DNA from: Bacteroidetes bacterium HGW-Bacteroidetes-7
GTDB lineage: Bacteria > Bacteroidota > Bacteroidia > Bacteroidales > UBA932
Assembly: GCA_002842465.1 (NCBI GenBank)
Contig: PHDA01000007.1
Coordinates: forward strand, 30,770 to 94,769
DNA: 64,000 nucleotides
Direction of reading: 5' to 3'
Shown in pieces: positions 11,696-34,609 of the stretch. Position numbers and translations under genes: made by a program. The stretch's first letter is position 1; every line of letters begins with the position of its first letter. The notes below the pieces were generated by a model. It was not told the origin of the DNA, made no database searches, and worked only from the letters and a program-made list of their open reading frames with translations.

Positions 11696-12127
11696 ATGAA
11701 AAAATTGATTTTTAGTCTGATAGCCGTAGCTCTTTTAATAAGCAGTTGCGGACCCGCATTTATAGCCACCGGTCCCGGAAACGACAGAGGCTACGATCGC
11801 AGAGGTTATGATGAAAGAGGTTATGATGAAAGAGGTTATGATAACAGAAGAGACGACAGAAGAGGCTACGACAACAGAAACCCAAGATCTGCAGATGCTT
11901 ATATTCTTCTGGCACAAACCAATCCGCGCCTTAGAAACGTAACAGTACTTATTGACAACAGAGTAAGAGTTAATCTAAACTATGACAACAGAAGCAGATC
12001 TGCCAAAGCAAGACAGATAAGGGTAAAACCGGGAAGGCATAATATTAAGGTTTACTCAAACGGCAGATTCCTTTATGAAAGATGGGTTGTAGCCACACCA
12101 AACCGCACCATAAGGTTCTCTGTCTAA
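11696..12127 (+). CDS. Small lipoprotein with RGYDE/RGYDN repeats
   Basis: Lipobox-like LLISSCG; repeats DRGYDRRGYDERGYDERGYDNRRDDRRGYDNR. Confidence 0.8.
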   Translation: MKKLIFSLIAVALLISSCGPAFIATGPGNDRGYDRRGYDERGYDERGYDNRRDDRRGYDNRNPRSADAYILLAQTNPRLRNVTVLIDNRVRVNLNYDNRSRSAKARQIRVKPGRHNIKVYSNGRFLYERWVVATPNRTIRFSV

Positions 12128-29592: not shown

Positions 29593-30588
29593 ATGGAAAT
29601 TGTCTTAAGCGTTTTGCCGGTTATGCTTTTTTTGCTTTTCCTTTTTATGATGGATAGCTTTAAACTGGTTTCCGGGAAAATTGTTCTCGCTTCATTTTTC
29701 TGGGGGATAACATGTGCATTTGTTGCTTATGTTATCAACAGCTTTGCAATAGCTACATTTTCCCATGGTTTACAGGTACATTCAAAATACATAGCTCCTC
29801 TGCTGGAAGAGCTGATAAAGACAGGTTTCGTTATCTATCTCGTATCAGTAAAGAGAGTGGGTTTTACCATTGATGCTGCAATTTATGGCTTTGCAACAGG
29901 GGCCGGTTTTTCTATGGTAGAGAATATCTATTATATGTATACCCTTCCGGATGCCTCATTTCTTGTATGGATTATCAGAGGTTTTGGTACTGCTCTGATG
30001 CATGGCGGTTGTACGGCAATTTTCGCAGTTATTTTTGTAGGAGGTAAAATAAAAGAGAGGGGCTCACTTTTATCTTTTTTAATTGCCCTTATATCTGTTA
30101 CTCTTATACATTCTGCATTTAACCATTTTTATATAAATCCTGTTATTCAAACTCTCGGGATTATAATTCTTCTTCCTCTATTTTTCATAATTGTTTTTCG
30201 ATATAATATAAACCAGCTTGGAGAATGGCTCGAGGTAGAATTCAGCAGCGAGATAGAGATGCTCAGGATGATTAACCGGGGAGAATTATCATCAACAAAA
30301 GCTGGGAAGTATTTTCTCTCCATAAAAGAACAGTTTTCTAAGGAGGTAATTGTTGACATGTATTGTTATCTGAGAATTTATATGGAACTCTCCATCAAAG
30401 CTAAGAGTAATATAATGCTTAAAGAGAGTGGTATTGAAATTGTTAAAGACCCTGAAATATCAGATAAGCTTGCCGAATTTAAGATGTTACGAAAGAGAAT
30501 CGGAAAGGTCGGAGAACTTGTTCTTTCTCCACTGATAAGAATGAATTACAGAAATCTCTGGAAAATTAACCAAAACTTTATACTATGA
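29593..30588 (+). CDS. PrsW-family intramembrane metalloprotease-like protein
   Basis: Polytopic; APLLEELIKTGFV, GFATGAGFSMVENIYYM, GTALMHGGCTAIF, LIHSAFNHF. Confidence 0.85.
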   Translation: MEIVLSVLPVMLFLLFLFMMDSFKLVSGKIVLASFFWGITCAFVAYVINSFAIATFSHGLQVHSKYIAPLLEELIKTGFVIYLVSVKRVGFTIDAAIYGFATGAGFSMVENIYYMYTLPDASFLVWIIRGFGTALMHGGCTAIFAVIFVGGKIKERGSLLSFLIALISVTLIHSAFNHFYINPVIQTLGIIILLPLFFIIVFRYNINQLGEWLEVEFSSEIEMLRMINRGELSSTKAGKYFLSIKEQFSKEVIVDMYCYLRIYMELSIKAKSNIMLKESGIEIVKDPEISDKLAEFKMLRKRIGKVGELVLSPLIRMNYRNLWKINQNFIL

Positions 30589-31664
30589 AAACAAGAACAA
30601 CATTAGCAGTCACTGCTGCTGGTTTTTTTGGCATTATTGCCGGGTTCCTTATCGGGATCTCTGTTGAATATCCACTGGTAAATAATGACTCAATTTCAGG
30701 AACCATAGGCAAGGTAAAAAAATACAGCAATGCTAAGGCAACTGAGGCCGATCTTATGCTTCAAAACGAACTTGCTTCTGACACCCTTCTCCTTAATTCA
30801 ATGAAAAACTACCTGAACTTCTATTATGCAAATGCAATTGATTTAGGTGAAAAAATTGAAATGGTAGTTAATGCATCAAAATCTAATGCGGATTTTAGCA
30901 CTAAATACAGCGAAAATATTGCAGCCATCCAAAGGTATGGTCAATTTATAAATTCAACCCGCACAGACTTGCTTATGATGCTTGCCTTATGCAATGATCC
31001 TCAGAATACAAATGCAGTAATGCTAAAGAACTTTACCGTCCAGGTTAATAATATAGTTACACGTACCAATTATTACAGGAGCAGCGTTATTGACATGATT
31101 AACATTATTGAGAATTACATTAAAGAGAATCCTCAAGAATCGGCTAAAGGACTTGCAAAGGCTCATGACTTGCTCACCTATAATCAGGGCGTCACAGCAG
31201 TTGTAACCAATGATAAAGTATTGTTAAAATACCTGGATAAAAAGAGATTTTTCGTTTCTGATATAGAGTCTGGAGAAGTTGATGCAATAAAAAGCAAAAT
31301 TGAGACAGATAAATTGCAGCTTAAAAGTTTTTGGGACTCAGAAAAACTGGGAATCGGGTTTTATGATTTTGAAAAACTTGGTTTTATGGATATTGAACAG
31401 ATGGGGAAAATAATTGCTTTTGATTCTGAAAAAATTGGAATCACCTTTTTTGATGCAGAAAAACTTGGTTTTTTTGATGTAGAAAAGTTGGGCAGAATAA
31501 TTGCCTTTGACTCTGAAAAACTTGGCATGAGGTCAAACATAAGCTCGGCCGAACTAGGCGGACGACCTTTATTTTTTGATTCTGAAAAGCTGGGTATATT
31601 TTTTGATTCTGAAAAACTAGGGACTGGATTTACCGACTCTGAAAAATTGGGATTAGTTTACTAA
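30585..31664 (+). CDS. Membrane-anchored protein with C-terminal DSEKLG tandem repeats
   Basis: N-terminal TM; about 11 repeats of [FYW]DxEKLGxxF in residues ~250-359; overlaps upstream stop by ATGA. Confidence 0.85.
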   Translation: MKTRTTLAVTAAGFFGIIAGFLIGISVEYPLVNNDSISGTIGKVKKYSNAKATEADLMLQNELASDTLLLNSMKNYLNFYYANAIDLGEKIEMVVNASKSNADFSTKYSENIAAIQRYGQFINSTRTDLLMMLALCNDPQNTNAVMLKNFTVQVNNIVTRTNYYRSSVIDMINIIENYIKENPQESAKGLAKAHDLLTYNQGVTAVVTNDKVLLKYLDKKRFFVSDIESGEVDAIKSKIETDKLQLKSFWDSEKLGIGFYDFEKLGFMDIEQMGKIIAFDSEKIGITFFDAEKLGFFDVEKLGRIIAFDSEKLGMRSNISSAELGGRPLFFDSEKLGIFFDSEKLGTGFTDSEKLGLVY

Positions 31665-31666
31665 AG

Positions 31667-34609
31667 ATGAAAAGACTTCTGTCTATTCTCTCTCTCTCTT
31701 TTCTTATTTTACTCCCCTCCCGGATTAATTCTCAGGAGATAAACAGAGTAAAATCGGGAAATCTTGAGCTTATCTATTTTGGCAAACGCTACAGCTTTCT
31801 GGTGCCCCATGTTGTTTCTACTTATCACAATGCATCAAAGTTCCATTCAAAATTCTGGAACTACAAAGACAACACCACCTATTTGATGCTCAATGATTTT
31901 GAAGACATGGGGCACGGCGGGGCTATTGTTATGCCCTTAAATCAGATACACCTTGGCATATCACCATACAGTTTTGCTTTTAGTATAATTCCTTCTAATG
32001 AGAGGTTTCAATGGCTATTTAACCACGAATTCACACATCTTGTAATGGCCGACAAACCAGATAAAAGAGATCTATTTTTTCGAAAAATTCTGCTGGGCAA
32101 AGTAAGACGTACAGAAGAGTATCCGCTTTCTGCTCTTTGGAGCTATTTTACAACTCCACGGTGGTTCTCACCCAGATGGTATCACGAGGGTATAGCTTGT
32201 TTTCTGGAGACATGGATGTCCGGTGGGATGGGAAGAGCTATGGGCTATTACGATGAGATGTATTTTCGCACTATTGTAAAAGAGGGTCAAAAGATATACT
32301 CATTAGTAGGGTTAGATACCGAGGGGACTACGATAGATTTTCAAGTTGGTGCAAACTCTTATCTGTATGGTACAAGATTTATAACATATCTTGCCTATAA
32401 ATATGGTATAGATAAGCTAAAACAGTTTTATGACAGATCAGAAGGGAGCAAAGCATTCTATGCAACGCAGTTTAAAGCTGTTTACTATAGAGGAACAGAT
32501 GAAATTTGGAATGAATGGATTGAGTGGGAGAATAATTTTCAAAGAGAGAATCTTGAATCTGTACGGAAATATCCGGTTATAGATTTCAACCCTATAACTG
32601 AAAAACCATTGGGGAGTGTTTCAAAACTTGAATATAATCCAACTACCGATAAAATTTATGCATCTGTCAATTATCCGGGGGTCATTTCACAAATTGCTGA
32701 AATTGACAGAAAAACCGGAGAGTCCAGAAAGCTTGCCACTCTTGATTCCCCACAATTATACTACTCCACTCATATTGCCTACAACCCCGTTAAAGAAAAA
32801 CTCTACTTTTCTGAACACAATAGTAAATATCGTTCTCTTGCTGAAGTAGATATAAAAACAGGGAGGAAAAGGATAGTTAAAAAAATGACAAGAACAGGTG
32901 ATATTGCAGTTAATATTATTGATAACAGCATCTGGGGAGTTATGCACGATAACGGATATTCTGTGTTGGTAAAGATTCCTGAGCCCTTTGATAAGGTAAT
33001 ACCAATGTTTACTGCTCCTTTTGGAAGAGCCATTTTTGATATTGACATTTCACACAACGGAGAGCTGTTAAGTGCGACAATGTCGGGTGTAAAGGGAGAG
33101 CAGTCGGTCATACTTTTTGATCTGGCAGATCTGGAGATTGGAAAAACAAATTACAAAACGCTAATTGAGCAAGAAGATGTAACTCTCACTCAGTTCAGGT
33201 TTTCTTCCGACGACCGTTATCTTACAGGAACCTCCTACTTTACCGGGATATCTAATATATGGAGAATCAACCTTGACAATAACGAATTTGAAATGTTGTC
33301 AAATGATGATACAGGACTATTTATGCCGGTTGAACTATCTCCTGATTCACTTATTGTACTTAAGTTTTTCAGGGACGGTATGAAACCCGGAATTATCCCT
33401 TCTAAGGTGATTAACGATGCAAACGCAATAGAATTCCTTGGGAATATGGTACACCGGGACCATCCTGAAGTTGAGGAGTGGTCACTGCCTCCTGCCTCAT
33501 CTGTGAAAAGCCTCCCTCAAACAGGAGAACCACAAAAATACTACCCCATAAAAGAGATGAAGTTAATTAATGGTTATCCTGATATTGCAGGTTTTAAGGA
33601 GACTATCGCTGCAGGATATCGGATGAATTGGAGGGATCCTCTGGGTGTCAGCAATATTGACCTCTTCATGGCACTATCTCCATGGAGCAATTATGAAAAC
33701 AATCAGAAAATTCATTTGTCAGCCGAATGGCATTTGTGGAACTGGATTTTTTCAGCAAACTATAATAAAACACATTTCTATGACCTTTTTGGACCAACAA
33801 AGAGGAGTAGAGCAGGTTACTCCTTTGGTATTGAGTATAAACGCACAAAATCACTCTACTCTCCTTTTAAAACATTTTATAATATAGGGGTCTATACATT
33901 TGGAGATCTTGAGGTTCTCCCGGATTATCAGAACATTACAACACCAATTAAGAATCTTCATATGGCAACAGCGACTTATGGTCTGTCAAAACTAAGGAGA
34001 ACACTGGGAGCTGTAACAGATGAAAAGGGATACTCATGGAAAATAAATGGAACCACTCTGGTTGCTAAAAGTGACTTTTATCCGACTTTTGTCTCTGATC
34101 AAGAGTTTGGATTTCTGATTCCGGGTATAAGGAACAGTAGTTTATGGATAAGAAACAGTCTCGGAGTATCTGTCGGCGAAAGAGAATCCGGCCTCTCTCA
34201 TTTCTATTTTGGCGGATTCAGAAATAACTATGTAGATTGGCAGCCATCTGAACAGTACAGAAGCACTTTGGCATTCCCGGGAGCAGAAATTGACGAACTG
34301 AGCGGGTACAACTATTTAAAGACAATGGCAGAGATTAATCTTCCACCACTTAGGCTTAAGAATGTCGGAACAACTTGGCTATACCCCACTTTTGTAAAGG
34401 GGTCACTATTTGGAACTCACCTTGTGACAGATTTTGACAAATCAATGCATACAAATAATTACTTTAATGCCGGTGTTCAGATAGATTTTCAAGTAGTATT
34501 ATTTTCGTATATAAAAACCACGTGGTCTGCAGGCTATGCTAGGAAATTTGATCCAAATAAAAGATTTTCAGAGCAGTTCATGCTATCTTTAAAATTATTG
34601 GGAGATTAA
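31667..34609 (+). CDS. Secreted HExxH metallopeptidase / beta-propeller / outer-membrane barrel-like protein
   Basis: NHEFTHLV ... YHEGIACFLETW; TolB/WD-like repeats; C-terminal barrel-like tail. Confidence 0.75.
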   Translation: MKRLLSILSLSFLILLPSRINSQEINRVKSGNLELIYFGKRYSFLVPHVVSTYHNASKFHSKFWNYKDNTTYLMLNDFEDMGHGGAIVMPLNQIHLGISPYSFAFSIIPSNERFQWLFNHEFTHLVMADKPDKRDLFFRKILLGKVRRTEEYPLSALWSYFTTPRWFSPRWYHEGIACFLETWMSGGMGRAMGYYDEMYFRTIVKEGQKIYSLVGLDTEGTTIDFQVGANSYLYGTRFITYLAYKYGIDKLKQFYDRSEGSKAFYATQFKAVYYRGTDEIWNEWIEWENNFQRENLESVRKYPVIDFNPITEKPLGSVSKLEYNPTTDKIYASVNYPGVISQIAEIDRKTGESRKLATLDSPQLYYSTHIAYNPVKEKLYFSEHNSKYRSLAEVDIKTGRKRIVKKMTRTGDIAVNIIDNSIWGVMHDNGYSVLVKIPEPFDKVIPMFTAPFGRAIFDIDISHNGELLSATMSGVKGEQSVILFDLADLEIGKTNYKTLIEQEDVTLTQFRFSSDDRYLTGTSYFTGISNIWRINLDNNEFEMLSNDDTGLFMPVELSPDSLIVLKFFRDGMKPGIIPSKVINDANAIEFLGNMVHRDHPEVEEWSLPPASSVKSLPQTGEPQKYYPIKEMKLINGYPDIAGFKETIAAGYRMNWRDPLGVSNIDLFMALSPWSNYENNQKIHLSAEWHLWNWIFSANYNKTHFYDLFGPTKRSRAGYSFGIEYKRTKSLYSPFKTFYNIGVYTFGDLEVLPDYQNITTPIKNLHMATATYGLSKLRRTLGAVTDEKGYSWKINGTTLVAKSDFYPTFVSDQEFGFLIPGIRNSSLWIRNSLGVSVGERESGLSHFYFGGFRNNYVDWQPSEQYRSTLAFPGAEIDELSGYNYLKTMAEINLPPLRLKNVGTTWLYPTFVKGSLFGTHLVTDFDKSMHTNNYFNAGVQIDFQVVLFSYIKTTWSAGYARKFDPNKRFSEQFMLSLKLLGD

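Follow-up and report, generated by a model that had tools for sequence, protein, structure and literature searches.

A lineage-variable repeat tail on a GTIG-anchored protein in PrsW-linked gene cassettes of Bacteroidota and other phyla

The tail gene and its neighbors

The window, which is the whole 64,000-nucleotide stretch of DNA analyzed here, contains a trio of closely packed genes encoding a PrsW-family protease, a protein with a repetitive C-terminal tail and a large protein of 980 aa. The features of this locus are as follows.

29593–30588, plus strand: PrsW-family intramembrane protease, 331 aa (Pfam PF13367, 7e-18)
30585–31664, plus strand: repeat-tailed membrane-anchored protein, 359 aa, for which orthologues were found
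30591–30659, plus strand: predicted N-terminal transmembrane (TM) helix, residues 3–25 (from sequence; modeled as a helix at low confidence)
30675–30764, plus strand: juxtamembrane SGTIGKVKKY element, residues 31–60, conserved more widely than any other part of the family (cross-phylum alignment)
30744–31337, plus strand: predicted helical middle domain, residues 54–251 (AlphaFold pLDDT mostly 66–95)
31332–31661, plus strand: DxEKLG repeat tail, residues 250–359, eleven units (unit count, shuffles, dN/dS 0.13–0.29)
31335–31421, plus strand: 87-nt super-repeat, copy A (DNA self-comparison and between-species comparison)
31422–31508, plus strand: 87-nt super-repeat, copy B (same comparisons)
31667–34609, plus strand: 980-aa protein, read as zinc protease, β-propeller and outer-membrane barrel (weak Pfam matches of homologues; co-occurrence)
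32024–32038, plus strand: HEFTH, the HExxH-type zinc-binding motif of the 980-aa protein (HExTH invariant across 11 homologues, one of them from a Calditrichia record)
32186–32188, plus strand: E174 of the 980-aa protein, invariant in the same 11 homologues

The PrsW gene adjoins the tail gene, overlapping it by 4 nt, and the gene for the 980-aa protein starts 2 nt past its end. The motifs of the protease are intact; EE72-73..K76, E110, H137 and H173 are invariant among the PrsW proteins of the cassettes described below. The 980-aa protein is read as a putative outer-membrane barrel carrying a zinc protease and a propeller, from weak Pfam matches among 11 homologues to Peptidase_MA_2 (six), Omp85_2 (four) and PD40 (two); the barrel and propeller assignments come from sub-threshold matches. 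A PDB profile search with this protein, hereafter the barrel protein, returned no match.

The tail is composed of ten DxE[KQ][LIM]G units, at residues 251, 261, 269, 280, 290, 298, 309, 332, 341 and 351, and a degenerate eleventh, SSAELG, at residue 320. This agrees with an earlier sequence-only reading, which had described about eleven C-terminal units starting at residue 250 (nt 31332). By chance such units are scarcely expected (mean 0.003, maximum 1, in 20,000 shuffles of the window protein). The units are spaced 8–11 residues apart with a longer gap near SSAELG, and the tail is thus not a strict tandem array. In the DNA of the gene, a 20-nt core recurs in eight copies with at least 72% identity. 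Copies A and B are directly adjacent and 77% identical, confirming the proposed 87-nt super-repeat and the duplication it implied. Compared between the window and its nearest relative (L038), A matches A at 84% and B matches B at 90%, whereas A and B within a species are 77–79% identical; the duplication therefore predates the split of the two species. Tandem Repeats Finder, run on the window DNA at score 40, did not report the DxEKLG array, which indicates that the array is old and has diverged at the DNA level.

The repeat had been placed on a membrane-anchored protein and considered to belong to no established family, and both statements stand, the anchor being an apparent one formed by the predicted N-terminal helix. 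AlphaFold models the N-terminal hydrophobic segment as a single helix, residues 3–25, at low confidence, while the tail has pLDDT values of 23–46, no strands and no confident fold. Neither the motif nor the rest of the protein had a significant match in Pfam, NCBIfam or PDB sequences, and Foldseek with the full-length model found no PDB match at E ≤ 0.001. Matches of the tail to a calcium sensor and to DUF1118 were at noise level and were dismissed.

The tail protein is present in 10 of the 25 genomes of the window's genus. Its full-length orthologues, at 27–45% overall identity, retain degenerate DxExLG units whose number and spacing vary. Against L038 the tail has a dN/dS of 0.29, and against a second relative (L039) one of 0.13, the latter from near-saturated synonymous sites; these values indicate that the tail is under purifying selection and is not drifting freely. 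The sequence-only reading had held that a named repeat family, or a confidently disordered tail with no conserved motif, would count against novelty. The motif is conserved and no named family was matched, so neither situation was found.

Synonymous divergence from L038 differs along the gene, with pS values of 0.25 in the GTIG module (30675–30809), 0.31 in the tail (31329–31661) and 0.61 in the helical domain. Recombination, gene conversion or DNA-level constraint are candidate causes of the lower values in the GTIG module and tail. In another relative (L010, 1474–2397, minus strand, at the end of contig G002:C34), an in-frame junction at a YYTN stretch common to both connects the start of PrsW with the middle of the tail protein; it is either a deletion or an assembly chimera.

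A constant anchor with changing tails

Wider searches and a cross-phylum alignment located the TM helix and GTIG..KY module on proteins with other tails. Judged by this alignment, the family is defined by the TM helix and the juxtamembrane GTIG..KY element, not by the type of repeat, and the DSEKLG tail is one version of a lineage-variable repeat tail on an inner-membrane protein. Other Bacteroidales tails repeat DQLNLLRG or AQDKLQA, and those of further classes in the window's phylum repeat SPDFSRLMA, KDAAFQELL, RDENLVAAL or AVEDFRNML. The repeat is NKAAILNKLSAE in the Calditrichia record and QVIPALEK in the Gemmatimonadota record, lineage labels of relatives being the record titles of metagenome bins. 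Autocorrelation gave an exact nine-residue period (z ≥ 17) in 27 family members, some of them closely related to one another, and periods of 8, 12 and 11 residues in L054, L056 and L070, respectively; the window's relatives have an irregular period of 9–10 residues. Matches of the regular tails to Plasmodium HRP, Med31, TPR_END and other Pfam and NCBIfam entries were set aside as artefacts of repeat composition.

Some cassettes hold two to four tandem tail proteins. Up to four per cassette, with differing tails, were seen in L024, L033, L036 and L037 (G345) and in L040. The tail proteins of L055 and L056 are 97% identical despite record titles of Bacteroidales and Calditrichia, and one of the two contigs is probably mis-binned.

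Cassette order, co-occurrence and anti-sigma fusions

The cassette occurs in Bacteroidota and Calditrichota and in a single Gemmatimonadota genome. In profile searches of all loci, the order in most lineages is ECF sigma factor, anti-sigma factor, tail protein and barrel protein. Among 20 longer loci, PrsW is present in 18 and all five components in 15; of the five incomplete loci, three run out where their contig ends and another belongs to the Gemmatimonadota genome. In that genome (L069, G722), a cassette-type anti-sigma/ECF pair lies far from a trio of PrsW, barrel and tail genes.

The tail and barrel proteins occur together. Across the order, 19 of 394 genomes encode the tail protein and 18 the barrel protein, every one of the 18 being among the 19 (Fisher 3e-30, a value that is overstated since genomes with shared ancestry were taken as independent; the nesting itself is complete). 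The same nesting holds for the 25 genomes of the genus, where the barrel protein is found in nine. In the two genomes with the tail protein alone, G276 and G023, it is cut off by a contig end. At the window locus and in its genus, no ECF sigma or anti-sigma gene lies beside the PrsW, tail and barrel genes. One cassette anti-sigma factor, used as a query without a positive control, had no match in the 25 genomes of the genus.

Several families from other classes have one open reading frame that matches an anti-sigma profile at its N-terminus and then the TM-GTIG profile, and continues with roughly 18–46 nonapeptides. In these relatives an anti-sigma domain of the ECF type is thus joined in frame to the TM-GTIG-repeat tail. 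The window protein begins at the TM helix and has no anti-sigma domain. Stand-alone anti-sigma factors of the cassettes carry a similar element: G[TS][IMVFL] occurs shortly past their own TM helix in 26 of 28 distinct proteins, compared to 18% in shuffles. By eye, the triplet is at the expected place in 24 of the 28, with GAM or GTA in the other four. The GT[IM] element suggests that a single protease, with PrsW the obvious candidate, uses a common handle, although it leaves common descent unproven.

Candidate roles of the tail

Two systems provide the analogy for a functional model. The anti-sigma factor RsiW of Bacillus subtilis receives its site-1 cut from PrsW (PMC3498285), and in RsgI proteins anti-sigma domains are coupled to the sensing of substrates (PMC12203970). 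By analogy with both, we favor a model, to which we assign a probability of about 55%, in which the tail is a periplasmic handle within a conserved PrsW-controlled envelope-signaling cassette, ordered as an optional ECF sigma and anti-sigma pair, the TM-GTIG-repeat-tail protein, the barrel protein and PrsW. Projecting into the periplasm, the tail would serve as a repetitive rod or handle that engages either an envelope ligand or the outer-membrane protein. Whether PrsW can reach the juxtamembrane GTIG element would depend on whether the tail is occupied or has been cut by the zinc protease. Once PrsW clips the anchor, the sigma factor would be freed in lineages with a fused or neighboring anti-sigma domain. 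For the window's genus, where the trio has no adjacent sigma or anti-sigma gene, the output may run through a sigma factor encoded elsewhere or through direct control of the outer-membrane protein. In favor of the model are the order and nested co-occurrence of the cassette genes, the anti-sigma fusions, the triplet behind the TM helix of stand-alone anti-sigma factors, purifying selection on the tail, the intact protease motifs of PrsW and the 980-aa protein, and the RsiW cut in B. subtilis. Weighing against it are the lack of sigma and anti-sigma genes at the locus in the window's genus, the window tail's lack of a confident fold, and the sub-threshold matches behind the barrel and propeller assignments.

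Alternatively, the tail may sense misfolding, its short amphipathic units binding hydrophobic segments that unfolded envelope proteins expose, so that client load would trigger PrsW cleavage. STI1/DP repeats, which bind clients, are the model for such a role. The cassette layout is of the stress-sigma type, and SPDFSRLMA-type tails, which share a short S/N-P-D/E-F..L pattern with these repeats, score above the Pfam STI1-HOP_DP (PF17830) cut-off. However, none of those tails contains a stretch that reaches the cut-off by itself, so the match may be compositional, and the window protein has no PF17830 match at E ≤ 1. We regard a misfolding sensor as unlikely, though it merits consideration.

A somewhat smaller chance is given to a passive role, in which the tail would be a rod or spacer that tethers the barrel protein to the inner membrane without signaling. 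The partner gene stays constant while tail length and repeat type vary, and a regular tail, that of the Calditrichia relative, is modeled as an extended helical solenoid to which each stretch of 12 residues contributes one short helix (pLDDT about 62–87). This model resembles the N-domain of MgtE (Foldseek probability 1.00, E about 0.01–0.03), and the Calditrichia protein (L056) is the only relative to match the corresponding Pfam family, PF03448 (8e-29). The other domains of MgtE are all absent, and the DSEKLG tail has no PF03448 match at E ≤ 1. Because the Calditrichia repeat differs from DSEKLG, its helical solenoid leaves the fold of the window tail unsettled. A mere tether would also leave two things unexplained, namely that genes for PrsW, an ECF sigma factor and an anti-sigma factor are constantly linked to it, and that the tail is fused to an anti-sigma domain.

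The β-solenoid, self-assembling or surface-ligand tail inferred in the sequence-only reading was not upheld and is now improbable. The window tail is indeed richer in aromatic and β-branched residues and glycine than the regular tails, but its model is strandless and without a confident fold, and the relative's tail is modeled as helical. No named β-repeat family was matched: the window protein has no Pfam match to RTX, curlin or pentapeptide repeats at E ≤ 1, and the motifs GGxGxD, Qx(G)xN and A(D/N)LxX are absent on inspection. That the tail is weakly constrained low-complexity sequence with no specific function would suit the varying copy number and spacing and a repeat type unconserved across the family, but is very improbable given the dN/dS values and the units kept in divergent orthologues.

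The handle model can be set against known systems. Like the sigmaW-RsiW-PrsW system of B. subtilis (PMC3498285), the cassette has an ECF sigma factor, a membrane anti-sigma factor, PrsW and single-TM substrate candidates. What sets it apart is the repeat tail, often on a protein of its own, and the linked gene for the zinc-protease/propeller/barrel protein. The window trio lacks the sigma and anti-sigma genes found in most other lineages and is not classed as a member of the classical PrsW/ECF system. As in RsgI-type anti-sigma factors (PMC12203970), the fused members join an anti-sigma domain through a TM helix to an extracytoplasmic region; in the cassette, this region is a short-repeat tail, the sigma factor belongs to the ECF type, and an outer-membrane-type protein acts as partner, while the window protein has no fused anti-sigma domain at all. 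PrsW-dependent polymorphic toxins (PMC3482391) also place PrsW beside a repeat-bearing protein, but in the cassette PrsW is a separate gene and sigma and anti-sigma genes are usually present. A toxin reading of the tail protein was rejected because no toxin domain was matched in the window protein in Pfam or NCBIfam.

Overall, the cassette appears to work like PrsW/ECF signaling, the new parts being the repeat tail and the constant outer-membrane-type partner. A literature search found no description of the cassette or tail, although an existing ECF classification may list such a gene context. Tentatively, the cassettes may form an undescribed class of envelope signaling in at least three phyla, in which a fast-changing short-repeat tail on a conserved GTIG anchor would connect the barrel protein with the inner membrane and control cleavage by PrsW, as a rule of an ECF anti-sigma factor, with some lineages, including the window's, keeping the trio without the sigma factor.

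To our knowledge, little work has addressed how, in Bacteroidota and related phyla, events at the outer membrane are relayed to ECF sigma factors, or which proteins PrsW targets outside Firmicutes. The five-gene cassette, with its near-perfect co-occurrence, shared juxtamembrane element and natural anti-sigma/tail fusions, supplies a family of candidate PrsW substrates that can be put to the test. With its constant anchor and rapidly changing tail, the family is also a natural series for learning which features a repetitive periplasmic domain needs in order to function.

Two further observations concern small genes. Elsewhere in the window, a small lipoprotein-like open reading frame (11696–12127, plus strand) encodes RGYDE repeats from a perfect 15-nt tandem repeat (11801–11842). 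Near several cassettes lie small genes that look STAS-like and, in L056, kinase-like from their sequence (L041 and L045 8958–9305; L056, 1295–1985; L061, 2905–3192).
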